Source: Clavaria fumosa
Lineage: Eukaryota > Basidiomycota > Agaricomycetes > Agaricales > Clavariaceae
NCBI GenBank assembly: GCA_951802425.1
Contig: OX637801.1
Location: 558,001 to 622,000, forward strand
Direction of reading: 5' to 3'
Length of the DNA: 64,000 nt
In this document: one piece after another, positions 16,254 through 62,250 of the stretch
Layout of the letters: the number at the start of each line of letters is the position of its first letter
Position numbering within the stretch: position 1 is the first letter of the stretch
Translations under genes and position numbers: made by a program
Notes under the pieces: model-generated
Told to the model about the DNA's origin: nothing
Seen by the model: only the letters and a program-made list of their open reading frames with translations
The model's database searches: none

Positions 16254-16258
16254 AAAGT

Positions 16259-23476: not shown

Positions 23477-25490
23477 TTACTGGTCGCGAGCCTTCTCTTT
23501 TCCCTTTTGCGACCCCTCCGCCTTCTCCACCACACTCGCGGTTTTCCCCTCCTCCTCCATTTCTTTCTCCTCCTTGTCTTTCTCCAAACCTTTCAACACT
23601 ACTCCATACTGGTCCACCCTTGGAAACTCCAGTAATTCCCGACGCACACGATGCTGTTCTTCCTCTGCCCACTTCTCCACCCACGACGGAAGACCTTGCG
23701 TTGACTTCAACAACAACTCGTCATAGGCAAAGAAAACCGTCTCAAGCCCCTTTCGTCCGCGAAAACGAACGTCGCGAAGCTCGCCGACGGTCGCAGAACA
23801 TTGATTACGCAACCCTGGAAATGAATTGTCAGCCAACTGCCAAGGAATTCGAAAACCCGCAACCACTTACCTTGTTCCCGTTTCCTACCTGCCGACAATT
23901 CCTCCTCCATTCTCCTCACGATCGCGTACAACTCTGAAAGAACAGATTAGTCCACCTTCATACCCGTGATGACTAAAAACTTACTGTTCTCCGACTCTTC
24001 GGTCTCCTCCAACCTTCGCCGGACGTCCCCCAACTCCACCCTCCAACCTAAACCAACAAGAAAATTAATTCGCGATCTCACGGAGTAGAATGATGACTTA
24101 CCTTCCGCCTCCTTTTTCATTGCTGCAATCACCCTGCTCACCTCCTCAAACTCCTTGCGCGTCCCCTCCGCCCCCATTAACAATCCTATAGACGCGAATG
24201 AGTCAACTTCATATTCGCAACTATTTCACTTACCCTCTTTCTCCTTCCGCAACTTCTCCAACTCCCGGCGCGCTTTTCTCAACTCGACTTCTTGGTCTGA
24301 ATCACACGGAAGTCAATCTACAAGGCAACAATTCGAGTGAAAACTTACCTTGCCACTCCCCATGGAGTGCCTCAAACTCCTTTTCCGCTCCCTCAGCCCG
24401 CGTCGTCAATTCCGCGACTTCCGCAACCTCCTTGCCTTTGCCTATAAAGGTCGCGAGCTCAGTATGAAACTACGGGGACCAGGACAAACTGATACTTACC
24501 TTTCTTGCCCCACCACAATACCTCCAACTCACGCTTAGCCGCCACCAATTCCACCTCCAATTCCGTCTCCCGATGCGACTTGTATACCCACGCTATCTTC
24601 TTCGTGGGTTCCGCGACTTGCTGACGGAGCGTTGCGAGCTCCTGTTCCAGATCTGTCCTGGGGACCAGGGTCTCCGCAACCTTTCCTCCTCCCTCCACCA
24701 ACCCCTTCAATGACGACGGCTTCGCCACTCGCCTCCTTGTTGACGGACCAGGCGTCAGCGACCACGACCTTGTCCTTGCTCGCTTTCCGCGTACTGCTCG
24801 CGTTGGGGTCCCCGGAATCGTAATAGTGGGGAGCTTGGCTCCCACTCGACTCGCGACTGTTGGGGTCGCTGTCGCAGCTGATCCTGGTGCCTCTGCCCGC
24901 CGCAGAGCCTCATCAATTCGCGTGTCGCTCCACCCGAGTTCGGCCTTAACGCGCCATCGACGAAATTCCTGGACCCAGGAACACTTCCCATGGTCCTCTG
25001 CGCACTGGCGACACTTGCCGGCAGTGCTGCGCACACACTGTCAGCCCTTTGCGACGCAGTTTTCGCAATCCTGGAATGTAACAATCAGAAGAAACGAATG
25101 GGAATGAGAACCATTATTACGCACCTCTCGCTCCCTTTCATTCCACTCTTTGTTTTCCATCACTGACCCTATTTTCTTCCAAGCTTTTAGGAAGTCCGCG
25201 GGCGACAGGTCAGCCTCGCCCGCGACGTTCTCCACCGCCCCGATTGAGTCCGTGATGTCGCTCGCAGTCTTATTCGTACTCGCGACGTTGCCTCGCGTCT
25301 TGCGGCGACCTGCGACTTCGCGAAGACGTGCACATCGCTCTTGCTCAGCCTTTTGACGGGCCAGCGCGTCTTCCAGGATCCCCCGATTGAGGCTGGGTTC
25401 CGTTTCATCGTATATGCGCATTTCACGCACGACCTCGTTCTCGTCCTTGTTGGTTTCGGTTTCGTGTTGTTTGATGAAAGCGGAGACCAT
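23477..25490 (-). CDS. Gypsy-A antisense accessory gene: cysteine cluster plus coiled coil, 8 exons
   Basis: This gene lies between pol and the 3' LTR, on the opposite strand. Hand splicing gives exons 25490-25125, 25070-24500, 24441-24349, 24296-24234, 24185-24102, 24047-23985, 23933-23871 and 23814-23477. All seven introns are GT-AG, 48-58 bp. The exons join into 1641 nt in one frame, 546 residues counting one internal TGA. Intron 1 is phase 0 and the rest are phase 1. Exons 4-7 are 63, 84, 63 and 63 nt, that is 21 or 28 residues, whole numbers of heptads, and they encode E/K/R-rich coiled coil. A cysteine cluster C-x2-C-x6-C-x7-C-x2-C-x6-C-S-W begins about residue 124. TGA at 25041-25043 sits inside it where CGA fits. 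The start is 116 bp inside the 3' LTR. The protein is unknown to me; nucleic-acid or protein binding is an inference. Confidence 0.8.
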
Positions 25491-25593
25491 GGTGGTTGGA
25501 CTTAGAAAAAAATTTCGGGTGTCGTGACCTGATCAACAAACATCGCGCTGACTAATCATCACATGATCTCCACTCTCGCAGGGCTCGAGGCTT

Positions 25594-25606
25594 GAAGGGG
25601 GGGTAA
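25594..25606 (+). other. Gypsy-A polypurine tract
   Basis: GAAGGGGGGGTAA lies directly before the TG of the 3' LTR, the expected place for the plus-strand DNA primer of an LTR retrotransposon. Confidence 0.85.
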
Positions 25607-27023
25607 TGTCAGGACCCATTCATTTTTCCCATACCCAAACCGACCTTACCAAGACTTCTGAACCTCCCAACGACCCTCTACAACCTCGCGAGCCCCTTCA
25701 CATGCTTCCGAAACCTGCTATTCCCTTCCGGAAGCCTCTCCAACCTTTCCCGCACTCACACGACACTCGCGACCACTATGCCATATTCGCGACGCCTCCC
25801 TTTATTTCATTCCATACGCATACCTCGCCCAGACCCACCAATCTTACGCGTGACACGACGTTGCGCGTCTTCTTCCGCCAGCACGTGACTTGCCGCGCGG
25901 CACCCCCGGTGCTACCACTACCAGCGCTAATACGTTACCAGCGTTACGACCGTTACCCGCGTTACCAGTGTTACCCACGTGACTACCCGCCCACAGGTCA
26001 CCTGCGTCACTAGCGTCACTCACGTGATCGCTCTTATGATCTCGCGACCTTAACACTCAAACGCGCCACCAACGGTCAGCTGTACGAACACTTCAAATTA
26101 TGCTTCCTTTCTTCTCCCCAATCGTCTATAACTACTTTACTTATGATCCGAGAATCCCCCAGTAGTTATAGATACGTATATAATTATTTAACCAGGTCGC
26201 GACCCATGACAGGTCATCTTCGTGACCTTACCTATGCATACCTAACCCCTCGCAACCTTAGTAGAACACGCGCCCAGTCACTTTACGACTAAACATACCC
26301 CGTACTACTATATTCTTGTCGCCTGGCGACCTCTGTACTTTCCCTCTTTCGTTGTACTCTCTGTACGCACGTATATAAGTCTCGCATGTACTTCTCGTAC
26401 TGTAGACTTGATATTAATGCACATTGGTTTAAGCTTGAGGCTATTACGCCCTTTGAGCTTGGAACCATTGCGATTGATAGGTCTTGTCTCTCTTGGTGAC
26501 CACAAGATCGCCAAGACACACTCTACTCTGTTCTAACTCGCCCTCTGCGCTCGTACAACTCGCGCGATCTAGGTATTCTTTATTATTCGTCTTGGTACTG
26601 ATCTTGGAACCCTACAGGTTCACCTGTCGGTTGGCAAAGTTATTGCCTTCACCAACACATTTCTCAACACCGTCGCGACCACCGCGACCCTTCCAACATT
26701 GTCTATTTCTTTCACCTCGTCTATTCCTTTCTTCACGCTTCGTCGGTCGACTTCGCGACCCTCTCAGCGTCACTCATTTCCCCCTTCCTCGTCAATTACC
26801 TCCTTTACGCTTCATTTATCGACTTCGCGACCTTCCCAACGACGTCTTCCTCCTCTATACTTGTCTTTCTTCACTCTTACATCTTCTCAGATGTCTTCGC
26901 GACCTTCCGGGACTGAGCATTCTCGACTGTGCTCAACAGTTGATTGGTCTTAGCGAGTTTCCAGGACTGGTCACCAACAAGTTGATCTCCAGCATTACTA
27001 TCGAGACAGGACAGGCCCTAACA
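25607..27023 (+). repeat. Gypsy-A 3' LTR
   Basis: This is the 1417-bp partner of 16259-17675. It ends in CCCTAACA and is followed by the target duplication AAAGT (27024-27028). Confidence 0.97.
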
Positions 27024-27067
27024 AAAGTATTCAGTTTTATTTGGTCCATATCACATGACCGTGATGT

Positions 27068-27252
27068 GATGGGAGGGTTCGGTCACACAACGTGTGACAA
27101 GAAGACGACGTCTTGGCCAACGAAAGGCCTCATCACGTGCCACTCATCTTTCGTTGAACATTACACTATATAATTTAATACTGCCCTCCTCATCTCGAGA
27201 CCTGACTCGATTCTGTCCCTCTGCACCCAATTCTCCCTTCAATTTTGAACTA
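27068..27252 (+). repeat. 185-bp promoter-like direct repeat, copy 1
   Basis: This segment recurs at 32434-32618 with the same length and only a few differences. It contains CACGTG-like sites and a TATA-like ACACTATATAATTTAA (near 27162), followed by a C/T-rich stretch. The pair could be the ends of a 5.5-kb repeat element, but the flanking sequences differ and I cannot fix LTR borders. Confidence 0.8.
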
Positions 27253-27344
27253 AGGCTATCACGACTCGTCTCGAGACCTGACTCGATTCTGTCCCTCTGC
27301 ACCCAATTCTCCCTTCAATTTTGAACTAAGGCTATCACGACTCG
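27193..27344 (+). repeat. 76-bp tandem duplication
   Basis: Two almost identical 76-bp units starting TCTCGAGACC (27193 and 27269). The first overlaps the promoter-like repeat. Confidence 0.9.
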
Positions 27345-27659
27345 CAACTCCGTGGCTCCTCGTGACTCCGTCCTTCAGGACCAGTCCTCTCAGGACTCCG
27401 GTGCCAGCAACCCTCTGGCTCCTCCTAGGATGGATCCCCCAGTCGGAGGAGGGGGGGTCACAGGTACCGCCAATGAGAATCCATATCCGCCACCTGCCGG
27501 GGAGCGCCCCGGTTATCCCTTCTGCCCCCAGCGGGGTGACGCACGGGCATTCTAGGATGGCTTTGGGGTCTCCTCCGCCACCGGCAGGCAGCTCCGGGCG
27601 TGGCTGGCGCTGGGACGCACTCTCACTCCTGTCGGATGTTTGGGCACCCTGTGTTGCCA

Positions 27660-28650
27660 AAGTGTCCTCTTGGCCTGCCATCATTCCTCTGTCGCATCGC
27701 ATGCGCCTCCGGCCAACCCTCTTGGCCAGCCGGCACCGCTTGTGCCCGCCATTCCTCTTTTGCATCGCATGCATCTCCGGCCAATCCTCTTGGCCAGCAG
27801 GCACCGCTTGTGCCTGCTGTTGCTCCTCTGTTGCATCGCATGCATCTCCGGCCAGCCCTCTTGGCCAGTGGGCACTGCTTGTGCCTGCCGATCCTCCTTC
27901 GCGTCGCATGCGTCTCCGGCCAACCCTCTTGGCCACCGCTTGTGCCTGCTGTCACTCTTCTGTTGCATCGCATGCATCTCCAGCCAGCCCTCTTGGCCAG
28001 TGGGCACCGCTTGTGCCCGCCGATCCTCTTTCGCATCGCATGCGTCTCCAGCCAAACCTCTTGGCCAGCAGGCGCCGCTTGTGCCTGCTGTCACTCTTCT
28101 GTTGCATTGCATGCATCTCCGGCCAGCCCTCTTGGCCGGTGGGCACCGCTTGTGCCCGCCGATCCTCTTTCGCATCGCATGCATCTCCAGCCAACCCTCT
28201 TGGCCAGCAGGCACCGCTTGTGCCTGCTGTCACTCCTCTGTTTGCATCGCATGCATCTCCAGCCAGTCCTCTTGGCCGGTGGGCACCGCTTGTGCCCTCC
28301 AATCCTCTTTCGCATCGCATGCATCTCCAGCCAACCCTCTTGGCCGGCAGGCACCACTTGTGCCTGCTGTCACTCCTCTGTTGCATCGCATGCATCTCCG
28401 GCCAGCCCTCTGGGCCAGTGGGCACCGCTTGTGCCTGCCGATCCTCTTTCGCATCGCATGCGTCTCCAGCCAATCCTCTTGGCCAGCAGGCACCGCTTGT
28501 GCCTGCTGTCGCTCCTCTGTCGCACCGCATGCATCTCCAGCCGGTCCTCTTGGCCAACGGGCACCGCTTGCGCTTGCCGTTCCTCTGTCGCATCGCGTGT
28601 GTCTCCGGCCATCCCTCTTGGCCGGCAGGCACCCCTAGTGCCTTCCGCCA
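27660..28650 (+). repeat. Minisatellite with alternating 68- and 71-bp units
   Basis: About 14 units are recognisable by ATGCATCTCC or ATGCGTCTCC followed by a CTCTTGGCC block. Successive starts at 27701, 27769, 27840, 27908, 27972, 28040, 28111, 28179, 28251, 28319, 28390, 28458, 28529 and 28597 give spacings that alternate 68 and 71 (one 64, one 72). This is a 139-bp higher-order dimer. Open frames up to 458 residues on both strands are by-products of the repeat. Confidence 0.95.
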
Positions 28651-28734
28651 TTCCCCCCAGGCCCTGTTCCCACACTTGAGTGCCGCTCCCCAGTCTCGGG
28701 ACTTGCGCCCAGCTGCGGCTGCGGTCGTTCGGCT

Positions 28735-29095
28735 CTGAGGACTTGCGCCCGGCCGTGGCTGCAGTCCTCCAGTGCATGAGTGGCTGTTCTGGAATTGAAT
28801 TTGAGCTTGCTGTTGTCGCACTCTGCATCTCGCCTCGAGAAGCGCACCCTCGCGTAGCACGCATTGCGAAGAGGATCCACTTGTTTTTCATGCAGGGTCG
28901 CTCAGTATTTGTTATTGCCCTGCTCCCACATGCGGGTGCCACTCCCCACTCTGGGGGCTTGTGCCCGGCCACGGCTGCGGTCCCTCAGTGCGTGTGTGGC
29001 CGTTCTGGAATGAGCTTTGAGCTTGCGGTTGCTGCACTCTGCACTTCGCCTCGAGAAGCACGCCCTCGCGTAGCATGCCTTGCGAGGGGATGTTG
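28735..29095 (+). repeat. Diverged direct duplication, period about 216 bp
   Basis: A block containing CGCCTCGAGAAG, CCTCGCGTAGCA and a TTGAGCTTG motif occurs twice; CGCCTCGAGAAG is at 28831 and 29047. A third weak trace (CGCTTGTTTTCATGCGG) lies near 29568. Confidence 0.75.
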
Positions 29096-32271: not shown

Positions 32272-32832
32272 GGGTGGTCCTGTCACTCCCCTGGCACACC
32301 CAGCTAAGGGCTCGGACAGTGAGCTTCATTTGTCTGACCCTAGCTCACCCACAACTAGACTCTAGCTTATCACATCATATAGAATCTAGTACATAAATCC
32401 TCCCATTCTAGCCTGGCCTGAGTACAGGGCCAAGATGGGAGGGTTCGGTCACACAACGTGTGACAAGAAGACGACGTCTTGGCCAACGAAAGGCCTCATC
32501 ACGTGCCACTCATCTTTTGTTGAACATTACACTATATAATTTAATACTGCCCTCCTCATCTCAAGACCTGACTCGATTCTGTCCCTCTGCACCCAATTCT
32601 CCCTTCAATTTTGAACTACCCACCCTCCACTCCCTTTTCTTATATTGATAGCTAGTTTCTTCTGTGCTCGGGTGGTCCTGTCACTCCCCCGGCACACCCA
32701 GCTAAGGGCTCGGACAGTGAGCTTCATTTGTCTGACCCTAGCTCACCCACAACTAGACTCTAGCTTATCACATCATATAGAATCTAGTACATAAATCCTC
32801 CCATTCTAGCCTGGCCTGAGTACAGGGCCAAG
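32272..32832 (+). repeat. 163-bp direct repeats flanking promoter-like copy 2
   Basis: 32272-32434 and 32670-32832 are near-identical (GGGTGGTCC...GGGCCAAG), 398 bp apart. Between them lies the second copy of the 185-bp promoter-like repeat (32434-32618). This may be a tandem duplication or the scar of an element with long terminal duplications. Confidence 0.85.
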
Positions 32833-34263: not shown

Positions 34264-34302
34264 TGTCGGGCAGCCTGTAACGAGGTGTGTTGGGTTGTGA
34301 CA
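34264..34302 (-). repeat. Gypsy-C terminal repeat, 3' copy
   Basis: A 39-bp terminal direct repeat that matches 50967-51007. The shared core is GTAACGAGGTGTGTTGGG and what follows; mismatches are mainly CG against TG or CA. Confidence 0.75.
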
Positions 34303-34433: not shown

Positions 34434-35601
34434 ATGGCACCTACTCTCCACCCCCTCCTTCCCCTTTTGTGTGAAATCATCGCCGAGTTCCAAACCCGGC
34501 ATTTGCTGATGGCAGAGAGGTCTCTCCCCCCCCAAATGGACCTGCGGGCGGAATTTGAGGCAGTGACGGAGGTGAGGGAGCTGCGAGTGTGGGCAGACGA
34601 TGCCCAGCGATTGGTGGTAAGTCACCCAGTCCCCTTGACTCTAATGCTGATATGATAGTGCTGCCATAGGACCACTGTAGGTGGTATATGGCTTTTGCTG
34701 TGGCGGAGGGGGACATCGTCGAGTCCGAGGGGCAGCTGGAGGCAGTGGAGTGGGTGATCGTCAACGCCCACAATTTTCTGAAGAAGGTCGACGATGTGTG
34801 CGTGGAGTGGGCAGCAGAGGTAGAGCAGGCATGCCAAGAGGATGAAGCAGAGGAAGCACAGAGGGAAGAGGAGCATGAGCAGAACACGCAGTGCGAGGAG
34901 GAGGAGGCAGCAGCAGTGGCGACTGAGGCGGCCGCGGCTGCCTGCATTCCCATGTCAGAGGAGCGCAGGCGAAGTGAGGACGTCTGACGACAACAAGATG
35001 CATCGGTGCGTGACGTTGGTGATGCGGAGATTGAGGAAGTTGACGCCGAGGGCTATCAGTATGCCCGCCTCAGGTTCCTTGAGACGTGCACACAGTGGGA
35101 AGGGCGGACATTGGTGGATGGGAAGGTAAGTAGTTTTAATCAAGAGAAAAAAGTTCTAACATAATATTTTGTAGGATAAGGTGTTGGTCTTGCAGGACCC
35201 CCTCTGTGAACACTGCGCATTCATGAGCATACAGTGCATCAGGGTTGCGGAGACATTGTGCGACCGGTGCGCATGGCAAAAATGGTCGTGCAATGCACTG
35301 GGCGGCAAGTTGCTCAAGCGGGGTCGGAAGCGGGTGCGAGGGCCCCATCGCTGGGCCGAGTCGGGTGCAGCGGCTGGTGGTGGTGATACCCCCGGCCCCG
35401 CAGACTGCGCAGCAATGGGAGGCGTGGAGGCAATGGCAGTGGTTCCTGCCCAGTTAAGTGGACAATCTCCGCCTCACCGAGAGCCTGCAGTCAATACAGT
35501 CAGCATGCGTAACGCTCATGCATGGGTTCACCGAGCTGAACGATGCCTTCGGGGACAAGAAGCGGGTGATCGAGGAGCAGGAATACGATGTGTCGGACTA
35601 G
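34434..35601 (+). pseudogene. Gypsy-C antisense accessory gene: double C-x2-C cluster
   Basis: This gene lies between the Gypsy-C pol end and the 3' terminal repeat, on the opposite strand. Exons are 34434-34616, 34670-35125 and 35175 onward; both introns are GTAAGT...AG (53 and 49 bp) and keep the frame. The product has an acidic, Glu/Ala-rich coiled-coil middle, then CEHC-x5-C and CDRC-x5-C (the second near 35260), followed by a basic KRGRKR. An in-frame TGA at 34985-34987 fits a former CGA. After about 35345 the frame appears shifted; a C-terminus ending EYDVSD at 35601 lies in another frame. It starts 132 bp inside the terminal repeat, as in Gypsy-A. Family unknown. Confidence 0.65.
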
Positions 35602-35987
35602 GTTTCCTTTTTCTCTCTCTCTCCTCCCCATTGGCCACTGTATATATATATTTGTATGTACATTAAATTTTTTTGTGGAAAAAAAAACTTGTCTTGTGTG
35701 ATGAAAGGTGAAAACCACAAGGAGTGAGGGTAAACAGAGAGATGAAGGGTGAAGTGGAAATGAATGATAGTGCATACGAGAGGTGGATTTGAAATAGTAG
35801 TTGAGTTTCAAAGTTTTGTAACGAAGCGGAGTATGTGGAATTTGTGCAGGTATTCTGTAGGATGTCTTTAATGTTTTTTTTTTGTTTTTTGTTTTTGTTT
35901 TTTTGTTTTTATAGTGTGTTGTATTGGAAATGAGGAAAAGGAACACAAGTAAGTGAGTAAAAGAAGTAAATTGCATATGTAGGCCCA

Positions 35988-37146
35988 TTAAATGGGGCGG
36001 GGTTTGTGTGGATAATGTCAGTGGAAATCCTGAACATATTCTGTGGCATGCTCGAGGTTCTCAGCGGGTTGCCAGGTGCGGTGTTCCGTTGTCCCTTCAT
36101 AGCCGACCCATTCCACAAGATATTGGAGTTTCTTGTGGTGGAAACAACTGTCCAGGATGGCTGATACCTCATGCTCAACTTCGCCATCAACTTCAACTGG
36201 GGGCAGAGGAGGCTGCTGGCAGTGTGGAATTTCGTTCTCAACATGCAGTTGGAGTAATTTGACAAGACATCATGTAATGCCTTCATGGCCGGGGGTAGTT
36301 TGAGTTGGTATGTGTGGTCAGAGATTTTCTGTGAAATCGTGAGTGGTCTGACATACTTGGAGTCGAGCTTTTTGGATGGGCGCTTTGTTTTAATGTTACG
36401 CGCATCCAGCCAGACCTTGGAGCCAACGCGGAAATCCGGGGGTGGAATTTGGTGGTGCTCTGTAGCCTGGGCATATTGATCAATTGTGACATGGAGCTGT
36501 TCCTTCAGGTAGTCGTGAAGGGCAGTGAGGTCGTCTGCATGTTGTTGAGCCACGTAAGAGCTAACGTCGTCAATCCCAATCTCAAACCTGGGGTGGTACC
36601 CTTTATTCACAAAGAAGGGTGTTACTTGGGTTGCAGAGTGCGGAGTGTTGTTGTACATGAATTCTGCAAGCAGTAAAAGGGGTACCCAATCATCCTGTTG
36701 GTAGTTAACATACAGATGGATATACTGTTCGAGGATCTGGTTGATGTGTTCAGTCTGTCCATCAGTCTCAGGGTGGTAGGCAGTCGAGAGGTTTGCTTTG
36801 ATGTTGAGTAAATGACATAGCGAGGACCAGAATTTGGAAACAAATAGTTTCCCTTGGTCGGAAACTATGTCATGGGGTGCGCCGTGTTTGGCAAAGATAT
36901 GCTTTAAGAACAGTGCAGCCAATTCCATGGCACCGTCTGTCTTGCAGCATTCTACAAAGATCACATATTTTGTTAGTCTGTCCACAACAACTAAACTTGA
37001 ATCGAAGTCAAGAGACTGTGGTAATCCCTCAATGAAGTCCATTGAAATGGAACTCCACAGGCACTGCGGAATAGGTAAAAATTTCATTCGTCCATATGGC
37101 TTGTGTCAGACTGTCTTTGTCTGCATGCATTCAGTGCACAATCGGA
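35988..37146 (-). pseudogene. pol: Gypsy-C integrase (3' part) and chromodomain
   Basis: The minus-strand frame starts at the Gypsy-B1 insertion with the second half of the HHCC zinc site (CTECMQ), passes TGA at 37106-37108, and continues through the integrase core: SMDFIEGLP, VSDQGKLFVSKFW and TDGQTEHINQILEQ (catalytic D, D, E intact). After LHDV near 36275 a frameshift occurs. In the new frame a chromodomain is readable (HEVSAILDSC...YLVEWVGYEGTTEHRTWQP). TGA 36018-36020 lies near the end, and the stop is TAA at 35988-35990. Confidence 0.85.
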
Positions 37147-37151
37147 CATAG

Positions 37152-37454
37152 TGTCAGACTGGGTCTCACAATCACACAGCTTATATAAGGTCAATGATGA
37201 TGATACTAACATAAGGGGAAAAGGGTACAAGTAAGAAAAGGTTGCAGTATATATAGCAGGAAACCCCGGGAGTTGCCAGCATTCCCATGCTCGGACCCAG
37301 ATGTCACGTGATGCGCCCGAGGCCTGGGTCATGTGATGCACCATTATGTAATCTGGCGACTATTCCGATCACGTGACTTTCCCGTGATTTTCCCACAACT
37401 CTTTTGTAATCCTATCCTGACCTTTCTCATGTGCTTATGTAAGCGATCCTGACA
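37152..37454 (-). repeat. Gypsy-B1 3' LTR
   Basis: 303 bp, ends TGTCAG...CTGACA. It differs from 46178-46480 at about 17 positions by hand count, the majority CG against TG or CA. It contains CAGTATATATAGC, a TATA-like site. Confidence 0.95.
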
Positions 37455-37465
37455 TCACCCCCCTC

Positions 37466-40400
37466 TTAAGGCTGGGTGTCCCGACCTGCTAACTTCTCCT
37501 TGTTGGGGTGTTGCTGGAAGAAGTCTCGGAGCAACAGTGTGACATTAGTGAGGTTGTGATGAGGTTCCCAAGTGTTCTCCTCCACAGGGTACCCCAACCA
37601 TTTCACCAAGTACTTCACCCCATGTCCCACGTTCTTGACATCAAGGATGGCTTCAACCTCATACTCCAAGTGGTCATCGTCAATTGTGGGAGGGGGGGGT
37701 GGAGGTAGACTCTGAGAAAGGAAAGAGGGTGCAATATATGGAGTGAGTAGCAGCTCATTGAAGACCCGATGAATGCGCCATGCTCGGGGGAGCTTGAGCC
37801 GGTACGCTGCTGGTCCAACCTTTTCCTCAACCATGAAGGGTCCGGCCTGCTTGTTGTCAAGCTTCTTGGAGGGTTGATCCATTTTTAGGTTCCATGTGTC
37901 CAACCAGACTAAGTCTCCCTTCGAGTATTTCTGACTCAGCTGCTTTCCTTTATCATAACTAGCCTTCATCGCATCTGCTGCTTTCCCCATTGCTTCCCTG
38001 GCTGCTCTCCGAGACTCCGTGAGTTTGGCCATCCACTCATCTGCCGCAGGATTCACCTCCAAGGGTGGCCGAATTCCACCATTCCATGGGTGCCGGCCAT
38101 ATTCTAGGTAGAAGGGTGTGAATCCAGTGGCTGAATGCTCGTGGTTATTGAGCACAAACTCAGCAGTAGACAGCCATTCTGCCCAATCATCCTGTAGGTG
38201 GTCCACATAAGCCCGGAGATATACCTCAACCTCCTGGTTGACCTGTTCCGTCTGTCCATCTGTCTGGGGGTGGAAGGCAGTACTCAGGTTTGCCTTAACC
38301 CCAATCATCCCATAAAACTCCTTCATAAACTTAGACACAAACTGTGTGCCCTGGTCACTCACAACTTTCTGTGGAACTCCATGGTCACGGAAGACCTGGT
38401 CTCGGAGGATACGAGCAGCACCAAGTCCAGTGAGGTCAAGGCTGATAGCCTCAATGAGGGTCTGCTTTGTGAACTTGTCCACAATGACCAGGATGGCATT
38501 GTGCCCACGGGAGAGGGGGAAAGGGCCCACAATGTCCCAAGAGATCACTGCCCAAGGCCCTTTGGGCACAGGGTGAGGGTGGAGTGGAGCGGCACGCCTA
38601 GTGCGGTCAGGCTTCACTTTCTGACACATCTGACACCCTCCCGCATACCAATCTGAATCCTTCGCCATCCCCACCCACCAGTAGGACCTCAGCAACGCTG
38701 CTCTCAGCTTCCGGGGGCCTGGGTGACCAGCAATGGGAAGGTCATGCTCGAAGGCAAGCACTGCCTTGCATGCCTCTGGGGGCACCCAGGTGATTTTGGC
38801 CTTCCGCCAGAGTCCCATTCGATCTCTCGTCCACTCATCATCCACCTCTTCTGGCTTCTGCACATGTACCATGCTATTTTTCTGGAGTAGTGTCTCCATT
38901 TCCGACGTGAATGATGTGTGGGTCTCCACTTCTGGGAAGACTTGCACCAGTGCATCCTCCTCCACCATTTCTCCATAGTCTGGCCTCCATGAGAGTGCAT
39001 CTGCCTTGGTGTTCGATTTTCCTGTGCGGTACTTGATCTCGAAGTCAAAGCACTGGAGCTCGCCAACCCAACAGACCTGCCTCGGCTTCAGCTTCTGGGG
39101 TTTTTGGAAGTACTGAAGGTTTGCGTGGTCTGTCCAGATCTCAATCGTCTCTTCCACTCCAATGAGGTATGCCCACCACTTGCGAAGTGCCCGGATTACT
39201 GCCAAGAACTCTTTGTCATACACATCGTAATTCTTCTCAGCTGCAGTGAGGGCTTGGGAGATGTAGTCCACCACTTTCCAGGTCCCATCCATCTGCTGCT
39301 GTGAGAGCACTCCACCAGTCGCTAGGTTACTCGCATCCGTCTCTACCTTCCATCTCCCTTCATCTTGTGGTAGAGCCAAGACAGGTGCCGATACAAGTGC
39401 TAGGTGGAGGTCCTGGAAGGCCATTTCTTGCTCTGTTTCCCATTTCCATGGAACCTTCCCAGTCAGCCGGAATAAGGGTTTGGCTTGGGCTGAGAGATTT
39501 GGGATGTGCCGATGTAGGTAGTTCAGCATCCCATTAAACCTCTGCACTTCCTTCACATTCCTAGGTTGTGGCCAGTTCTGCACTGCTTCACCCTTCGCCG
39601 GATCGTGTTCCAGGCAGTTGTGAGAGATCTTCATCCCAAGGAAGATAATCTCACTCTTTTCAAACTCACATTTACTGAGTCTGAGGCACAACCCATTCTT
39701 TCCAAACTTCTCCAAAACTCGATCCATCCAGTACTGGTGAGTAGCCAAGTCCTCTGCAAACACTATGACATTGTCGACATAGGCCCAGACATGTCCTCCT
39801 GCAATCTCCTCTCTCAGCACATGATTCATGAAGCGCTGAAAGGTTGCAGGTGCATTCTGCAGCCCAAACCCCATGACAGCTGGTTCAAAGAGTCCACGAG
39901 GTGTTAGGAAAGCGCAACAGTGCTGGTGTTCTGGCCAAACCTGCATCGAGGGGAAGCCACCCTTTGCATCTATCTTGGAGTAGACAGACGCTCCCTTGAG
40001 CACATCCACTGTGTCTCTGATGCGTGGGAGGGGGTATTTGTCTTTGATCAGATGCAAATTTAGCCTTGAGTAGTCGATAATCGGCCGCAGCTTGTCCTTC
40101 TCATGTTTGAAGAAGAATAGGCTTGCATATGGGGATTTCGAGGGTCGGATATGTCCAGATGCTAACTGCTCATCCACCCATCGGTTCATCTCCACCATCT
40201 CTGCCTGTGTTAGTGAGTACAGCTTGGTGGAGAGGTGCCCAGGATCAGTTTTGAACTCGATTTTAATGTCAAAGTCAGGACGGGAGCAGGGGAGCTCATC
40301 CCACTTTGCTTCACTAAAGACCATGGGGTAGAGACTGGGCCAATCAGGTGTGGGGCCAGCATTGGTAAAACAGGTGTCCAGAATACTGGTGGAGGCTAGG

Positions 40401-41110
40401 GTACTTGTTTTCGGGGGTGCAGGGGCTCATTTGGGAGTCGGGCGGCTGTGCGGGGAAGAGGCACACACATGGGGGCAGCGAGTGAGCCTTACTTCTGCTT
40501 TCACCCAGTCAATCTCTGGGTTATGATGTTTTAACCAATCATGCCCAAGGATCACCATGTGGGACTGGGTCTTCCCTAGCAGGAAGTGGATCCGTTCCTG
40601 GTGATCGCCAACCGACATAAGCAGCTCTATCCCATACTGGATCTTGCCATCCCTATTCTGTGTCCCATCCACATTGTACATAGTGATCGGGTTCAACAGG
40701 GGGGATGGCTCTAATCCCACTTTTTTAGCCCACTCCAAGTCCATGATGCAGTTGGTGCAGCCTGAGTCAACAAGGGCTTTTGTGGTTGCCCCCCTGCCAG
40801 TGCTGAGAGCTTCCAGGTGCACCTGGATGGAGAGCTCTTGGGGCATATGCGATAGTGTGTCCTTCAGCACCTCTGCCAGGTGCTTGGTCGGCTCCACTTT
40901 TCTGCTAGTCCCCATTTCCTTTTTCGGTATTTCTCTCTTAGCAGTTTCCGTTTCCACTTTGTCCTTTGACTCAGCCCCAATCCGGGTATGTCTCTGCTTG
41001 TTATGACCCCATCCACTTGCATAAGCACTATCCCCACCCCGGACTCCGAGCTCCGTACCAACTCCAATCCACTCCGCCATAACTCTGTACACTCCACTCC
41101 ACACCTTCAT
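37466..41110 (-). pseudogene. pol: Gypsy-B1 protease, RT, RNase H, integrase, chromodomain
   Basis: One minus-strand frame runs from 41110 to 37466, broken only by TGA at 40427-40429 where CGA fits. The protease has ALVDSGCTN and ILGHDWL. The RT has LRPIIDYSRLN, but its active-site motif is YVDN instead of YVDD: the second catalytic Asp is lost by a change equal to CG to CA. RNase H has ETDASNLATGG and YDKEFLAV. The integrase has HPGPRKL/CQMCQKVK, SWDIVGPF, VSDQGTQF and TDGQTEQVNQ. The chromodomain at the end has YEVEAILDVK...VKWLGYPVEENTWEP. The region 952 residues long from 40324 is otherwise fully open. RT activity is probably lost. Confidence 0.93.
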
Positions 41111-41718
41111 CAGACTTTACTCTGTCGGCCTTTGGATCGTTCGGACTTTGTTCTAGAACCTTCTCCCTCCATCCCCTCATTCTGTTCACCATTGAGAGGA
41201 TACCCTTGACCCATGGGAGTCGCTTTTGTTGTTGTTTCTTTGTTCCATGAAAATTGCACAGGCACATGTGGTGAAACTCTCCTAGTAATTTGATATGTAC
41301 ATTGTTTCACATTACTCCTATACTCTGTCCTTGCAGTATAAGTTTCCACCTGTATCTCCCTGCTCCTCAGTTCGAATATTAACGTCTCTTGATCCTAAAA
41401 ACATCTGAGCTTTCGTCCTCATCATCCTCGACATTCTCCATGTCATCTGACCAACTCCAACCAACTCCGACAGACTCCGATCAACTTCGGAGTTTGACTA
41501 CATTCTGATCCTCTCTTAGGTATTGTTCTTGTTTTATAAATAGGGACAAGTATATATGTGGTGGCACAACACATACGTTGAGGCTGCAGTCCCATAAGTC
41601 TCCTTCCTCTTGTTTACTTCTTCATTTCTACAATATCGGACTCTGACCAGACTCCGATAGAACATCTCCGCTCCGCTACAATAACCCTTTCACCGCTAAC
41701 CTTGTTAGGACCATGACA
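40999..41718 (+). repeat. Gypsy-B2 candidate 5' LTR
   Basis: It begins TGTTATG where Gypsy-B1 sequence ends and finishes CATGACA before gag; these ends are near-inverse, as in the other LTRs here. A TATA-like TTTATAAATAGG lies near 41531. ACTCCGA-type words are frequent. There is no second LTR to confirm the borders. Confidence 0.55.
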
Positions 41719-41758
41719 GTATATTCGAACTTCAAACCTCGTATATACCAACTTAGCA

Positions 41759-42913
41759 ATGCCTACTACACGATCCGGTGCTCGACTTCCACCTACTGTT
41801 GCCGACGACGTCGACATTCCAGAACTGGCCGACAATACTCCGACTCCGAGTGTGTCCGGACCACCAGACCATGATGAAGAGTCAGATCCCTTGGTCACTG
41901 ACGACGATGACGAGCTAAATGAACCTCCGACACCTCGAGCAGAGCACGAACCAACTCCGGCATGTCTCCTTCAGCAAATTATTAATGCCAACAAGCACCC
42001 GGATATCGTTAAACCACACGACCCCAACACATTCAATGGCTCGGATGCTAAGAAGTTGAAAAGCTTCTTGGTCCAATGCCAGTTAAACTTCCTTGATTGC
42101 CCAAGAGCGTTCAAGTCTGATTCTCATAAGGTATGCTATGTCCTTTCCTTTCTCCGGGGCTTCGCCTTGGAATGGTTCAAACCAATGATCCTGGATGGTG
42201 AAGACCATCCGGTTCTTTCGAACTATAAGATGTTCATTGCTCAACTTACTGAGAACTTTGGTCCTTACAATGCGATCCACAAGGCGGAGTTCGAACTCGA
42301 ACGCCTCCAGATGCACAAGGACCAGAAGTTGACGAAATATACCATTTCGTTCAACAGATTCGCGTCCATTGTCCATTGGGATGAGTCCGCGTTGCAGCGG
42401 CAGTTCTACAAAGGACTTGCTAGCCGCATCAAGGATGAACTGGCCCACGTTAACCGCACGGACATGCTCCACGGACTCCGTGAGCAAGCCAGTGCGATTG
42501 ATGGCCATTATTGGGCTCAGCAGCAGGAGATCTCTCAGGACTCCGTTAAGGCTCTGACGCCTAACAACACCATCAAAAAGGAGACTTCGGATAGTCCCAA
42601 GTCCCTGAACACTTCCGGCGCTGATACCAAGTCCGAGAAACCCTCAGAAAAGCGTCCGGTGAACTCCGTTCCAAAGGTCACTGAGGGCTCCGCTAACTCC
42701 GGTAGCTCCAGCGATACAAAGAAGGCCCATCTGGGTCAGGATGGAAAACTGACTCCAGAGGAATGCCAATGGCGTTTTGATAATAATCTGTGCCTCTTCT
42801 GTGGAATAGCAGGCCACAAAGCCAACGAGTGTCATAAGCGGACCTCGCAGGCCAGTGCCAGTGCTGCACGAATCACCTCCGACGGAGATGACTCCGTGCC
42901 AAAAAAAGATTGA
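41759..42913 (+). CDS. gag: Gypsy-B2 gag
   Basis: A complete 384-residue capsid protein starting MPTTRSGARLPP. It has an acidic N-terminal segment, the gag domain (NTFNGSDAKKLKSFLVQCQLNF onward, in which FLRGFALEWFKP is typical), a Ser/Lys-rich linker and a zinc knuckle CLFCGIAGHKANEC (C-x2-C-x4-H-x4-C). It ends with KKD and TGA at 42911-42913. The slippery heptamer A AAA AAA at 42901-42907 directly precedes the stop. This is one of the few intact frames in the window. Upstream LTR and downstream pol are in the usual order. Confidence 0.92.
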   Translation: MPTTRSGARLPPTVADDVDIPELADNTPTPSVSGPPDHDEESDPLVTDDDDELNEPPTPRAEHEPTPACLLQQIINANKHPDIVKPHDPNTFNGSDAKKLKSFLVQCQLNFLDCPRAFKSDSHKVCYVLSFLRGFALEWFKPMILDGEDHPVLSNYKMFIAQLTENFGPYNAIHKAEFELERLQMHKDQKLTKYTISFNRFASIVHWDESALQRQFYKGLASRIKDELAHVNRTDMLHGLREQASAIDGHYWAQQQEISQDSVKALTPNNTIKKETSDSPKSLNTSGADTKSEKPSEKRPVNSVPKVTEGSANSGSSSDTKKAHLGQDGKLTPEECQWRFDNNLCLFCGIAGHKANECHKRTSQASASAARITSDGDDSVPKKD

Positions 42914-42950
42914 GCAGCCCAGAGAGCATAGTACGACTCTCTGGCTGCTC
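42901..42950 (+). promoter_or_regulatory. Gypsy-B2 -1 programmed frameshift signal
   Basis: The slippery heptamer A AAA AAA (42901-42907) is in gag phase. A stem of 14 pairs with one bulged C forms between 42912-42926 (GAGCAGC, CAGAGAG) and 42937-42950 (CTCTCTG, GCTGCTC), 4 nt after the heptamer. A -1 shift there enters the pol frame exactly. Confidence 0.8.
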
Positions 42951-45046
42951 CGACTCCAATCGTACTAAACCGATACTCGATACCCTTTCCTTTCATCATT
43001 CTCTTTCCCTTCTTGCCTCCTCTCCTTCTATTTCTTCTCCGTTCAAAGCTATGATAGACTCCGGTGCTGAACTTTGTTTCATTGATGCCAAATTTGCTTC
43101 TTGTTTCCGTCTTCCAAAAACTCCAGTGACCCCTCGGGAGGTCGTTTTTATTAACGGGACCACCTCCATATGGGTTACCGAAGCGGTCTGGTTATCCATT
43201 TGGCTCTCCGCCATGGATCCGACCGATGTCTTGTGTGTAGTTACAGATCTTGATCCCTCTAGTGATGTGATCTTGGGAATGAATTGGCTGTTCCAAAACA
43301 ACCTGCTGGTTGACTGGACTACTGGCCAGATAAAGCCCAGACCATCCACGAATGAGGAAAAAACTCCGAAATCTGATCTGGAGGGTGCACTGGCCAGCAC
43401 TCTCCACTCTGTCCCTCTGTCCACCTCTGTCCCTCTGTCTGTCTCCGCTCTGTGTGCTCCGGTTCAAATGTCATCTGCAGCAACTCCGAACCAGACCCGA
43501 ACTCCGTCTCCATCTCTGCTTCTGTCTCCATCTTTGACTCAGTCTCTGACCTTTCCATCTACTCCGTCTCTCCAGGAGACACCCAAAGTTTCTTTTGTGA
43601 ATGCTGCCGCATTCGTCACAGCTTGTGGACTTCACGGGTCCCAAGTCTTTGGCATGACGTTGTTGAGCAAGTCTGCGCACGCGGCCTCTGCTTCGTTCAA
43701 TGTCCCTGACACCACCTCCCAGGACCTCCTCTCCGTTCCGGAGGAGTACAGGGACTTTCCAGATGTCTTCAGTAAAAAGAAGGCAGATACCCTTGCTCCG
43801 CATTGACTGTATGATCTAAAGATCAACCTGCTGGATGGCCAATCCCCTCCACCAGGTGCGGTCTACTCTCTGTCGCAGTCCGAACTCAGCGAACTCTGTG
43901 AGTTTTTGGACGAGCACCTCCACATCGGATTTATCCATCCAAGCCATTCTCTGCACGGAGCACCTGTGCTCTTTGTCCGGAAGAAGAATGGAACGCTCCG
44001 ATTATGCGTTGATTTCTGTGGTCTCAATAAAGTGACCAAAAAAGACTGTTATCCGCTTCCGCTGACTAAAGATCTTCTCGATGTTCCAGGAACAGCCTGA
44101 ATCTATACAAAACTCGACCTCCAACACGCATATCACCTGGTCCGTATCGCTGAGGGTGACGAATGGAAGACCGCATTCCGCACCCAATACGGATCCTTTG
44201 AATGGTGTGTGATGCCCTTTGGGCTCACAAACGCGCCTGCCACATTCCAGCACTTCATGAACGATATATTCTCTGACCTCCTCGACACGTTCATGGTCAT
44301 CTACCTTGACAACATCCTCATTTACTCTGAGGATCCAGAACAACACATTGAGCATGTCCATGAGGTACTCCGAAGGCTCTGGAAGAACGGTCTCTTCCTG
44401 AACCTGGCTAAGTGTGAATTTCATGCTGAAACCGTGGAGTATCTTGGATTTGTTTTATCTCCGTCCAGACTTTCTATGGACACGGCTAAAGTGAAAACTA
44501 TACAGGATTGGCCAATTCCATGGAAGGTCAAGGATGTCCAGTCCTTCCTTGGGTTCGCCAATTTCTACCACCGCTTCGTCCATGGCTATTCCGAGATCGT
44601 CGCTCTGATGAACCGCTTGATGCATAAAAACATCGAGTGGCATTGGTCTGGCGATTGCCAGTCCGCGTTTGACTATCTGAAAACTGCATTCTCCACGGCT
44701 CCGATCCTCTCACACTTCATTCCTGGAGCTCCGCTGATGCCTCAGACTACGCTGTCGCTGCGATACTCTCTACAGTCGCCCCTGACAGTGAAGTCCATCC
44801 TATCGCTTTTCATTCCCGCACCCTAGGCGTCTCCGAACTGAACTATGACACCCACGATAAGGAACTCCTCGCTATATTTGAGGTGTTTACCGCTTGGAGG
44901 CACTATCTCGAAGGTTCTGAAATTCCGGTCGATGTTGTTACCAACAATAAGAACCTCGAGTACTTCTCCACGGTCCGCCTGCTCACCTGGCGTCAAGCCA
45001 GGTGGTCGGAGTTCCTTTCCCAGTTCAATTTCATGATCCGATTCTG
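42910..45046 (+). pseudogene. pol: Gypsy-B2 pol (protease, RT, partial RNase H)
   Basis: The frame is -1 to gag and has no ATG near its start, as expected for a frameshift fusion. The protease shows AMIDSGAELCFID and ILGMNWLF. RT follows with [22 protein letters not shown] and YLDNILIYS, where YLDD is expected; the Asp-to-Asn change equals CG to CA. In-frame TGA codons at 43804-43806 and 44098-44100 fit CGA. Near 44735 a small deletion and frame change occur in RNase H; ELNYDTHDKELLAIFEVF is readable in another frame. Sequence ends at 45046 in the RNase H C-terminal part. RT is probably inactive. Confidence 0.9.
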
Positions 45047-45675
45047 GGTCGATTCACCATGGGCGGGGCAGGGCAGGTAGTGTTCTGGTGGGCCACAACA
45101 CCCTCAAAGTGTCGCTGCTGGGCATCCAGCCTCTCAGCAAGTGCTTTCCATTCCCCATAGGTTCCCGGCATTGGGGAGACATTGTATATCTTTGCCACCA
45201 ATCTCCTGCTGAGGTTCTGCTCTAACCAGTGGACCAGAATGTCCAAGTCGGCTACTTCTGTCATCCCTGCTCGGTGAAGCATTGTCTCAAACTTGGCGAA
45301 GAACTCTGGGGCTGTCATGGTGCCCTGCTTTAACCCAGCGATGTCTGCAAGGGCAGTCGTACAGTCGTTCGGGTCATCAAAGGCCCGCTTCATTTCCTCC
45401 ATGAACTCCACCCAGGTTCCAGCTTCACCACTCTCTAGGATCTCTTCAGCTTTCATGTTTGCCCACTATGTGGCGAATCCCTCTCCAGTAATTTTGCTTA
45501 GAGCAAAAAGGACCTTTGCCAGGTCCGTGGCATAGACTGCCGGATTCACCATAAACAGGAGGCGAATTGACCGGAGGAACATGTGGAAGTTCCTTTTCTG
45601 CCCATTGAAGGGGGCAACAGATAAGTCCAGCCTCGTGGCTTGGACTACAGGCGGGGCAACATGGTCTGCCATCAC
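45031..45675 (-). pseudogene. gag: Gypsy-B1 gag (5' part)
   Basis: Starts MMADHVAPPVVQ, followed by a gag domain (SVAPFNGQKRNFHMFLRSI onward, with WVEFMEEMKRAF and APEFFAKFETML). TAG at 45466-45468 interrupts at ATxWANMK, where CAG fits. The frame ends at the Gypsy-B2 boundary near 45046; the zinc knuckle is not visible. The remaining Gypsy-B1 sequence resumes at 40998 with the segment before the protease. Confidence 0.82.
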
Positions 45676-45900
45676 AGACCCTGGTGGCAGTGATGGGGTT
45701 TCGGGGACGTTGGTAACAGGGGGATCAGGGGGGAGCAGGGCTCAATCCGGTCTCGGTCTCAGATGCTGTAAATAAGGTACCAGGCTTGGTGCCCTTGGTA
45801 TTGCTTGGGAGGGGTCACGGAGGTCGTCCTCCAGTTTGGGTCACGTGTATCTACACACAGTAAAATTCTCTTGTGGTTCTGTTACACACCACAGGCAAGG

Positions 45901-46080
45901 TTGGATTATCTGAAGTTTCTGTTAATCACCACAGACAGAGTGGGAACACCACAGGCAGGATTGGATTATCTGAAGATTCTGTTAATCACTTCAGGCAGGA
46001 TGGGAACACCACAGGCAGGATTGGATTATCCAAAGTTTCTGTTAATCACTTCAGGCAGGGTAAAGAAAAGAGGATGATAG
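45901..46080 (-). repeat. Three 60-bp tandem repeats in the Gypsy-B1 leader
   Basis: TTGGATTATC occurs at 45901, 45961 and 46021, each followed by an AAG-TTCTGTTAATCAC segment. The array lies between the 5' LTR and gag. Confidence 0.92.
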
Positions 46081-46177
46081 GGCTGAGCTGTGGTGGGATA
46101 TCACAGTTTGAGTCAGGGGCCCAGGCTAACCAGGTATGAGATACAGGGTTAGGGTGGACAGAGGGATGTTAGTATTG

Positions 46178-46480
46178 TGTCAGACTGGGTCTCACAATCA
46201 CACAGCTTATGTAAGGTTGATGATGACAATACTAACATAAGGGGAATAGGGTACAAGTAAGAAAAGGTCGCAGTATATATAGCAGGAAACCCCGGGAGTT
46301 GCCGGCGTTCCCACGCTCGGACCCAGACGTCACGTAATGCGCCCGAGGCCTGGGTCACGTGACGCACCATTATGTAATCTGGCGACTGTTCCGATCACGT
46401 GACTTTCCCGTGATTTTCCCACAACTCTTTTGTAATCCTATCCTGACCTTTCTCATGTGCTTATGTAAGTGATCCTGACA
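46178..46480 (-). repeat. Gypsy-B1 5' LTR
   Basis: 303-bp partner of 37152-37454, followed on the plus strand by the target duplication CATAG (46481-46485). Confidence 0.95.
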
Positions 46481-46485
46481 CATAG

Positions 46486-48709: not shown

Positions 48710-48717
48710 GAATCTCC

Positions 48718-50966: not shown

Positions 50967-51007
50967 TGCATTGGGCGGCCCGTAACGAGGTGTGTTGGGT
51001 TGTGACA
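50967..51007 (-). repeat. Gypsy-C terminal repeat, 5' copy
   Basis: About 41 bp, matching 34264-34302 except for CG/TG/CA mismatches and a 2-bp indel near the inner end. Confidence 0.7.
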
Positions 51008-56365: not shown

Positions 56366-56504
56366 ATCTGAGCAAGAACATGAGGATCAGATAAAATAGA
56401 CAAAATCTGTCAAGAAAATGAAATTATTCTTACCTTTGATCCTCCCACTTTCTGTAACTCCGAGCAAAGTCTTGTCTCCCGATGTCACTACCCCAACCAG
56501 CTGA

Positions 56505-57482: not shown

Positions 57483-57518
57483 GCAGCCCTTCGAACTCCG
57501 AACAGCTGGAGGGTTGCT
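57470..57518 (+). promoter_or_regulatory. Gypsy-D -1 programmed frameshift signal
   Basis: Heptamer A AAA AAC (57470-57476) is in gag phase, just before the gag stop. A 9-pair stem forms between AGCAGCCCT (57482-57490) and AGGGTTGCT (57510-57518), 5 nt after the heptamer. The -1 frame is open from here into the protease. Confidence 0.82.
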
Positions 57519-60500: not shown

Positions 60501-60994
60501 AGTTTGCCAATAAGAAATGAATACCCACTCCAGAAATCCGACCTGGACAACAAGTTTTTGTCTGAGCTGAATATCTTCACACCACTCGACCATTGAAGAA
60601 AATGCTAGGACCCTTCGAAGTGTTGTCTCAAGTCGGCCGGAGTTTGTTCGTACTCCGGCTTCTGATGAATTTCCGAGCCGTTCACCTGGTCTTCCACATA
60701 TCCATGCTGGAACCAGCAAAACCCAGCAATATCCCAAACCACGTCCAACTGCCCCCGCCTCCAGTCGAGATTGACGGAGAACTGGAATACAAAATTTCCG
60801 AAATCCTCGACTCAAGGATTGACAAGCGACATTGTCCTTGTCAATTATTGTACTTGGTATGCTGGACCAGTTACGAAGGAACTGACGAAGTAACTTTGTG
60901 GATTCTTGCCATGGAGCTTGCCCGCACATCAGAGCTGGTTGCGGACTTCCATGCCACGTATCCGAACAAGCCTGGACCTTACACCGGACCCTGA
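57477..60994 (+). pseudogene. pol: Gypsy-D pol: protease, RT, RNase H, integrase, decayed chromodomain
   Basis: The protease (about 57599-58081) has TLIDSRSSHSFIN, with Arg replacing Gly of D-S-G. RT (58118-58891) has LHLCVDFWPLNWITWKDRY and an intact YLDDILMYS. A frame change follows near 58890. RNase H is readable with ETDASDYAIAA and ELNYDTHNKELLAIF. Integrase has CTNCGRSK, FMDFIKKLP, VMSD-[R]-GPEFVSH and HPEADKTECTNQTLEQYL, where DGQTE is replaced by DKTEC. The end has a damaged chromodomain (EYKISEILDSR...). In-frame TGAs at 59227, 60124, 60518 and 60563 all fit CGA. Non-functional. Confidence 0.88.
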
Positions 60995-61089
60995 TGATTC
61001 TGCACCCGACTTAACTCACACAAAGAGTTCCAGAGCATGCAGAAAAATACATTGAAAAATATAAAGAAGCAAAAAAAATAATTATGTAT

Positions 61090-62250
61090 TTATGTGGGCA
61101 ACAACAAGTCATTGCCCACAGAGGCTTTGTCCGCAGGAGCCGGCTCCGACCCTTTCTCCGACCCCTTCCCCGCATCTGCCTTCTTCATGGGTCCCGGACC
61201 CCCGTCCACCTTTTTCCCACACCCGTTCCTTTCTCTGCTCCCACTTTCTTTACTAGCTCCGCATCCGGCATCTCTGCGTCTTCCGTGTCCTGCATGTCCT
61301 CCTCTAACTCCGGGACTTCGAACCCAGACCTCGCAAGACTCTCACAGATGTTGCCTTCAACACTGTCCAAGATCTGTTCAATAATCTGGGACCACCTCTT
61401 CGACATCACTTCCCAGTTTAGGGCCTGGTAAAGGGCCCGACCATTGGCAGCAGCCGCTTCCTTCACAAAACCTTGCCCCGTCTCCTGGACGGTGGCTCGG
61501 AGGGCCCGCAACTCTCACACAATCCATTGCACCGCCTGCAGGAACGTAGCCCCCGCAGGCATTTCCAACAGCATCGCTCCCGGCTTCAGCACCGCTGCCC
61601 ACTGTTTTTTCCGCACAACTGCCTCCTCCATCTCCACCGCAGAATCCAACTCCGAACCCACAGGCCATTTCTCCACCTTTCTCTTCTCCTTCCCCCGTGG
61701 TGGCTCCCCCGGCCAGCTGCACACCACATGCTTGTCGCAACATTTGTCGCAGCTTTTGACCCGACCGGGTCCAGTATGCTGGCACAGCTGCCAGAACCTG
61801 AGTATGCCCAGAAGCCAAAAGCAGAAACCTGACTTACCAAGTTGCATTTGGCACACCAAAGGCACACCTCATCGGAGGCCCGCTGGGCCGACTCAATTTT
61901 TTCTGCCCACCTCCGGGCCTCCTGCTCCTCCCACTCAACTGCCACCCGTGACGACTCAGCCTCCTGCCGCAAGGCCACCGCCTCAGCGGCAGTCCCCCAA
62001 CTCTCTTAATCGCCGGCCTTGCGGCCGTGATTTCCTCCCACTCACCCGCCTCCGCCTCTTTCCGTGCCCGCTCCTCCTCTTGGCGCCACCTCTCGGCCTC
62101 CTCCTTTTTACGACGATGCTCCGCCTCCTCCCGCTCCTTCCTCTCCGCCTCCTCCGCCTCTGCCTGGGCTTTTTCCCAAGCTGTGATCCGCTGTGCTATC
62201 GCCTCTTGTTGAGCTTTTAATTCTACAAGTTCAACATCTTCATCAGACAT
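61090..62250 (-). pseudogene. Gypsy-D antisense accessory gene: cysteine cluster plus coiled coil
   Basis: Between pol and the 3' LTR, on the opposite strand. It starts at 62250 (MSDEDVELVELKAQQ) with a long E/A/R/K coiled coil, then frame changes. A segment ending CLWCAKCNL (near 61840) meets a GTAAGT donor; after a probable intron CDKCCDKHVVCSW follows, close to the CRQC-x6-CSW of the Gypsy-A gene. Next come the VQWIV-[TGA 61515-61517]-ELRALRATVQ segment, an acidic stretch (PELEEDMQDTEDAEM) and a C-terminus ending GNDLLLPT at 61090. It starts 226 bp inside the 3' LTR. Family unknown; more decayed than the Gypsy-A copy. Confidence 0.65.

Follow-up and report, generated by a model that had tools for sequence, protein, structure and literature searches.

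Some long terminal repeat (LTR) elements carry antisense genes, most of which lack an explanation. One such gene, brtn of the Boty-like elements of Botrytis cinerea, was reportedly described by Zhao et al. in Virology in 2011. Boty-like Gypsy elements carry a chromodomain in gag-pol and an antisense additional gene (PMC4227169), and in plants, aORF-3R genes occur in Grande (gene23), RIRE2, Retand (with a TRP28 domain), and PvRetro13, all of them Gypsy elements (PMC7264820, PMC11963269). HBZ of human T-cell leukemia virus type 1 (HTLV-1) and APH of related deltaretroviruses are antisense and spliced, with DNA-binding, dimerizing products that lower sense transcription (PMC8622228). Here, we analyzed a 64-kb stretch of the Clavaria fumosa genome (contig OX637801.1, positions 558,001 to 622,000; the window), the genome searched comprising 48.8 Mb in 17 contigs. 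Three Gypsy elements of the window, Gypsy-A, -C, and -D, contain an antisense, intron-bearing gene between pol and the 3' LTR, and we propose with moderate confidence, from sequence comparisons, that it encodes the element's own Zn2Cys6/coiled-coil regulator, acting on the LTR of the chromodomain Gypsy element that carries it.

This gene resembles plant aORF-3R in position and orientation, and in that most members of a family have it, and the plant products have been proposed to be nuclear or DNA binding; however, those products have TRP28 or SMC-like domains, the Retand lineage is not a chromovirus, and the two plant texts do not mention introns (PMC7264820, PMC11963269), whereas here we found up to seven conserved introns, in fungal chromodomain elements with a Zn2Cys6-like cluster. 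An earlier note on this DNA, made from the sequence alone, had stated that antisense frames exist in plant elements, which is correct (PMC7264820), but the description of Boty extends them to fungi. Compared by description and not by sequence, brtn is likewise an antisense additional gene in a fungal chromodomain Gypsy element, and the portion of the description at hand mentions neither a zinc cluster nor an intron (PMC4227169). HBZ, from a retrovirus of people, is a basic leucine zipper (bZIP) protein, unlike the zinc-cluster product considered here, and we claim no relation in sequence. HBZ would be the nearest functional parallel, and plant aORF-3R together with brtn of Boty is the nearest structural class. 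A Zn2Cys6-type antisense gene in LTR retrotransposons was not found in the literature searched, most subscription papers being outside that search.

The gene of Gypsy-A starts with an ATG 116 bp inside the edge (TGTCA) of the 3' LTR and reads toward the 3' end of pol. The whole element extends from 16259 to 27023, and its features are as follows.

16254..16258, no strand: left target-site duplication AAAGT, the identical five bases lying just past the 3' LTR
16259..17675, plus strand: 5' LTR (TGTCA...TAACA), 97% identical to the 3' LTR
17946..23380, plus strand: gag-like and pol frames (protease, reverse transcriptase, RNase H, integrase, and chromodomain, from Pfam)
23477..25490, minus strand: antisense gene of Gypsy-A, with 546 codons in 8 exons and a single in-frame TGA
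25125..25490, minus strand: exon 1
24500..25070, minus strand: exon 2, containing all six cysteines
24349..24441, minus strand: exon 3
24234..24296, minus strand: exon 4
24102..24185, minus strand: exon 5
23985..24047, minus strand: exon 6
23871..23933, minus strand: exon 7
23477..23814, minus strand: exon 8
24981..25067, minus strand: cysteine cluster C-x2-C-x6-C-x7-C-x2-C-x6-C, followed by SW, with the in-frame TGA inside
25491..25606, minus strand: block separating the gene from the 3' LTR, with a polypurine tract and a conserved E-box-like site (alignment of seven copies)
25607..27023, plus strand: 3' LTR, paired with the 5' LTR at 97% identity
27024..27028, no strand: right target-site duplication AAAGT

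The seven introns measure 48 to 58 bp each, and clean splicing is predicted from the sequence. The window copy is disabled by the single TGA within the cysteine cluster. Spliced alignment of the A product covered 28 loci, which correspond to 24 distinct places (four were fetched twice), including the window, and in 6 of the 24 (L002, L004, L010, L011, L012, and L016) the gene is free of stops and frameshifts over its full length. Four of these six are near-identical blocks; in L002 and L004, a stretch near codons 414 to 420 is bridged by an irregular intron pair. The seven splice positions, mostly GTRNGT and YAG, were recovered in 27, 22, 27, 23, 25, 18, and 23 of the 28 loci. The exon structure is retained across A subfamilies at 60 to 71% protein identity (∼70% DNA identity), and not all introns are kept in L020 and L021 (55 to 58% protein identity). 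Because the introns are antisense to the genomic RNA, retrotransposition should preserve them. The A product has one relative in the protein database, P0001, whose 18 extra residues match A intron 1 in place and length, and no relatives of P0001 were found in viral contigs.

We then calculated the ratio of nonsynonymous to synonymous divergence (dN/dS) by the Nei-Gojobori method (NG86), including copies with stops, so that the values for the A gene are if anything overestimated. They range from 0.17 to 0.31 for pairs with dS above 0.5, and closer pairs, with few changes, scatter from 0.15 to 1.2. In eight pairs, differences per site amount to 0.17 to 0.23 at codon positions 1 and 2 versus 0.34 to 0.48 at position 3, about a twofold excess. 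For the D gene, taken with that of a further family, E, dN/dS is 0.22 to 0.65, two pairs being saturated, and for the C gene it is 0.22 to 0.49. These patterns argue firmly for a protein-coding gene under purifying selection, in line with the selected accessory protein, encoded by a gene with retained introns, that the earlier note postulated.

Gypsy-C and Gypsy-D carry their genes in the same arrangement, with the ATG respectively 131 and 226 bp inside the edge of the 3' LTR and facing the 3' end of pol.

34268..34302, minus strand: 35 bp at the border of the Gypsy-C 3' LTR, matching 50973-51007 with 94% identity
34434..35601, plus strand: antisense gene of Gypsy-C, three exons, introns 34617-34669 and 35126-35174, broken copy (intact relative, L037)
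35205..35291, plus strand: C cysteine cluster C-x2-C-x6-C-x7-C-x2-C-x6-C
35909..37087, minus strand: integrase end of Gypsy-C pol (Pfam rve and SH3_Tf2-1), interrupted by the nested Gypsy-B1
61090..62250, minus strand: antisense gene of Gypsy-D, intron 61788-61837 within the cysteine cluster, broken copy (intact relatives, L030 and L033)
61719..61864, minus strand: cysteine cluster of D, C-x2-C-x6-C-x10-C-x2-C-x6-C, interrupted by the intron and with SW after it

The window copy of C has one frameshift and two stops, and that of D has two frameshifts and one stop. Thus, the genes reported earlier in the window do exist in A, C, and D, where they lie antisense past the end of pol and before the 3' LTR and encode coiled-coil-like stretches in addition to six cysteines, but all three copies are broken and open relatives lie elsewhere in the genome. 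Automatic splice-caller models of broken copies (window C, D, and others) bypass stops and were set aside as evidence. No relatives of the D product were found in the protein database or in viral contigs.

Sequence comparison of the cysteine clusters revealed a single spacing, C-x2-C-x6-C-x7/10-C-x2-C-x6-C. Zn2Cys6 domains follow the consensus C-x2-C-x6-C-x5-12-C-x2-C-x6-8-C, and all 12 segments examined, from five families, conform to it. The C-x2-C units described before were real, and their conservation among other copies was borne out, but the three variants were not: C has x6 and not x5, and D fits the common pattern once the cysteines at the sixth residue are chosen. Among nine A representatives, the six cysteines are invariant save at one position (0.89), and conservation over 30-residue windows of the A product is highest on the cluster and its C-terminal flank. 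In the Protein Data Bank (PDB), a five-family profile searched with E up to 10 gave seven distinct matches, every one of them to LEU3, LAC9, PPR1, AlcR, or GAL4 (best E, 0.039), and Pfam Zn_clus was among the matches at E up to 1 for 12/12 family segments. Against the gathering cutoff of 21 bits for PF00172, one D segment scored above (23.4 bits), and the C, E, and F segments (17.6 to 19.2), the A segment (10.9), and full-length D (16.6) scored below. Full-length A had no Zn_clus match at E up to 1, its Pfam matches being weak ones of coiled-coil type alone, and Pfam scans of the products from A, D, E, and F gave no bZIP match. Foldseek with the modeled A cluster listed 17 chains, 13 of them Zn2Cys6, none significant, and a profile-profile comparison with three Zn2Cys6 domains gave a probability of 53. 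A further search listed no Zn2Cys6 entry. A structure model of the C cluster was of low predicted confidence (pLDDT, 49) and was set aside. Taken together, the cysteine spacing, an adjacent basic run, the coiled coil, and the best PDB profile matches are like those of Gal4-type (PF00172) factors; unlike typical members, these segments mostly fall below the Pfam cutoff, the basic residues customary in the first half are missing from A and F, and the genes are encoded antisense in retrotransposons.

We then searched the genome with the proteins and obtained 193 A-type matches, 89 D/E, and 40 C. The A counts use 150 of the 193 matches, with second hits of the same gene omitted, and give at least 99 merged A places among the matches listed. 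Association was scored when gene and pol C-termini converged within 3.5 kb. The gene converges on pol in at least 61/90 A cases (the A-pol figure being a lower bound), 16/19 C cases, and 9/9 E cases, without any same-strand case; the nine E pols are all the rows aligned over query positions 8 to 193/194, a group defined after the list had been inspected. Among 20 A loci of 10 kb, 16 show the order pol, antisense gene, 3' LTR. B1-type pols (100 of 150 rows) have none of the A, D, or E genes nearby (0/100), and the only pairing with a C gene (1/100) is the window itself, where Gypsy-B1 is nested in Gypsy-C. The 38 remaining pol rows, at 40 to 43%, formed the F group, and none of them has an A, C, D, or E gene nearby. 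We fetched 2 kb downstream of two F pols blind, and both stretches, L051 and L052, carry an antisense cysteine gene: in L051, an intronless open frame of 335 residues with the common cysteine spacing, and in L052, a decayed relative. The F gene occurs in 112 places and converges on 29/38 F pols, with one same-strand neighbor, and was found at 0/50 B1 pols and 0/17 other long chromodomain frames. Of the 66 F matches aligned over 300 residues or more, 44 are stop-free (counted by eye, with near-identical duplicates included), and of the 11 public relatives of the F product (P0002 to P0012), 10 have the complete set of six cysteines, the sixth being absent from P0011. The placement of E and F rests on convergence with pol. 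The trait is thus present in five families (A, C, D, E, and F), and the many copies of the gene in A and F speak against a single isolated capture; the three distinct elements of the earlier note were right as far as they went, but E and F are to be added, and its statement that Gypsy-B1, with a pol ending 12 bp before the LTR, lacks the gene holds for the other B1-type pols examined as well. One genome contains hundreds of copies of the gene, under strong selection and with open frames among them, in five families that share one type of predicted zinc cluster. Many unnamed predicted fungal zinc-cluster proteins may likewise be retrotransposon genes.

To compare distances, we retained the 13 of 17 loci with pol, gene, and LTR, omitting L009, L015, L019, and L020, in which pol is truncated or the gene or the LTR has gaps. 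In these 13 A elements, pol diverges by 3 to 12% and gene types by up to 41%; pol distance correlates neither with gene distance (Spearman, −0.03) nor with U3 distance (−0.09), and the LTR-side half of the gene correlates with U3 (Spearman, 0.61; P = 0.0005). The window copy and L013 differ by a dS of 0.26 in pol and 1.32 in the gene; for L013 and L018, these values are 0.45 and 0.11. These distances point to a common ancestry of gene and U3 that pol does not share. The linkage of gene and U3 is imperfect, and mere adjacency could produce it. Tentatively, we suggest that a Gal4-type, HBZ-like factor and its cognate U3 form a cassette exchanged among chromoviruses with very similar pols; regulatory specificity would then evolve apart from the replication machinery, and near chromosome ends at least one such gene may have survived the loss of the element. 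If the cassette does reassort against pol, the role of such antisense genes becomes testable, as recognition of the element's own U3.

Near contig ends, L010, L011, L012, and L016 hold near-identical blocks with an open A gene and a pol remnant of ∼200 bp, and no match to the A LTR was found within 10 kb; the gene has possibly outlived the element there. A 644-residue open frame lies beside the antisense gene in L010 (7083-9063) and in L016 (7627-9607). Three other near-identical A-type copies near contig ends, L045, L046, and L047, have flanks that are 99% identical, and the end-of-contig copies therefore appear to have spread by block duplication and not by transposition.

Upstream of the gene, D and E have a TATATAA box in common, 63 to 67 nucleotides ahead of the ATG.

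62312..62318, minus strand: TATATAA box upstream of the Gypsy-D antisense gene, kept in 6/6 D rows and 3/3 E rows

This box sits in the internal region, and the antisense promoter that had been placed at the 3' LTR is putative. A and C copies retain a polypurine tract and an E-box-like site between LTR and ATG. We do not claim a binding site, since the CACGTG E-box of A and C also arose in 53 to 54 of 1,000 shuffles (∼5%) and is not telling, and CGG/CCG was not clearly enriched upstream of the gene, its count being reached in 145 (E), 33 (D), 646 (C), and 937 (A) of 1,000 shuffles, with one copy each.

We propose that the product, with its predicted Zn2Cys6-like cluster and long heptad-rich stretches in the layout of Gal4-type fungal regulators, would be expressed from the gene's own antisense promoter near the 3' LTR, the antisense mRNA being spliced and the sense genomic RNA remaining unspliced. 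As a dimer, it would enter the nucleus and bind element DNA, either LTR/U3 or the upstream block, tuning sense transcription as HBZ does in HTLV-1. An accessory protein with a structural or RNA-binding role in the particle or preintegration complex (chaperone, nuclear import, or integration targeting), with the cysteines forming a knuckle, would also suit a coiled-coil-rich product whose formal Zn_clus scores are weak for A, C, E, and F, as well as the lack of CGG enrichment, and plant antisense products have been proposed to serve in nuclear import besides regulation (PMC7264820). We nevertheless regard this as rather unlikely, given six cysteines at Zn2Cys6 spacing in five families, best PDB matches that are all Zn2Cys6 regulators, and a linkage to U3 rather than pol that is more natural for an LTR-acting factor.

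Zn2Cys6 regulators are fungal proteins, and the four open A genes of L010, L011, L012, and L016 without an A LTR match in 10 kb could be taken as signs of a captured host Zn2Cys6/coiled-coil gene, some copies of which are host genes. This appears improbable in view of the order pol, gene, 3' LTR in 16/20 loci and of at least 61 pol-flanked copies in A alone; moreover, the four remaining loci are blocks almost identical to one another in which a remnant of pol persists, which indicates that these LTR-less blocks derive from the element. Capture may be the ultimate origin, though not the present state. We give very little credence to the idea that only the antisense RNA matters, by pairing with genomic RNA and feeding silencing or titration: antisense transcription alone has been offered as a regulatory possibility (PMC7264820), but the excess of third-position changes and the dN/dS of 0.17 to 0.31 across spliced exons, the kept splice sites, and the open 335-residue F frames, with 44/66 long matches stop-free, speak for the protein. 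Lastly, it is hardly credible that the antisense frames arose by chance and that their splice sites are mere noise; all three window copies are interrupted and an automatic splice caller can bypass stops in broken copies, but splice positions and cysteines are conserved, changes are biased by codon position, and F was discovered blind. The conservation tests already contradict a chance origin.

The remaining features of the window concern the elements and their surroundings. The pol domains are of Gypsy/chromovirus type (Pfam), and the first Gypsy-A frame (17946-19721) has no Pfam match. Reverse transcriptase (RT) identities are 62% for A-C, 40% for A-D, and 36% for A-B1, and the carriers of the antisense gene therefore seem closer to one another than to B1. 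Gypsy-C keeps 35 bp of its LTR edges, that of the 5' LTR at 50973-51007. An LTR pair for Gypsy-D was sought within the window and not found.

37147..46485, minus strand: Gypsy-B1, with CATAG duplications, nested in Gypsy-C and without an antisense gene

At 42023-45044, between the B1 LTRs, the plus strand has a gag/RT/RNase H fragment that is a relative of Gypsy-A (58% in RT); the B1 pol is on the minus strand. A tandem array just past Gypsy-A (27669-28643) has nested periods of 68, 139, and 279 bp, and a second one (5672-7525) consists of ∼43 copies of a 43-bp unit with 86% matches. A 185-bp repeat adjoining the right end of Gypsy-A (27068-27252) recurs 5 kb away at 32434-32618 with 98.9% identity.

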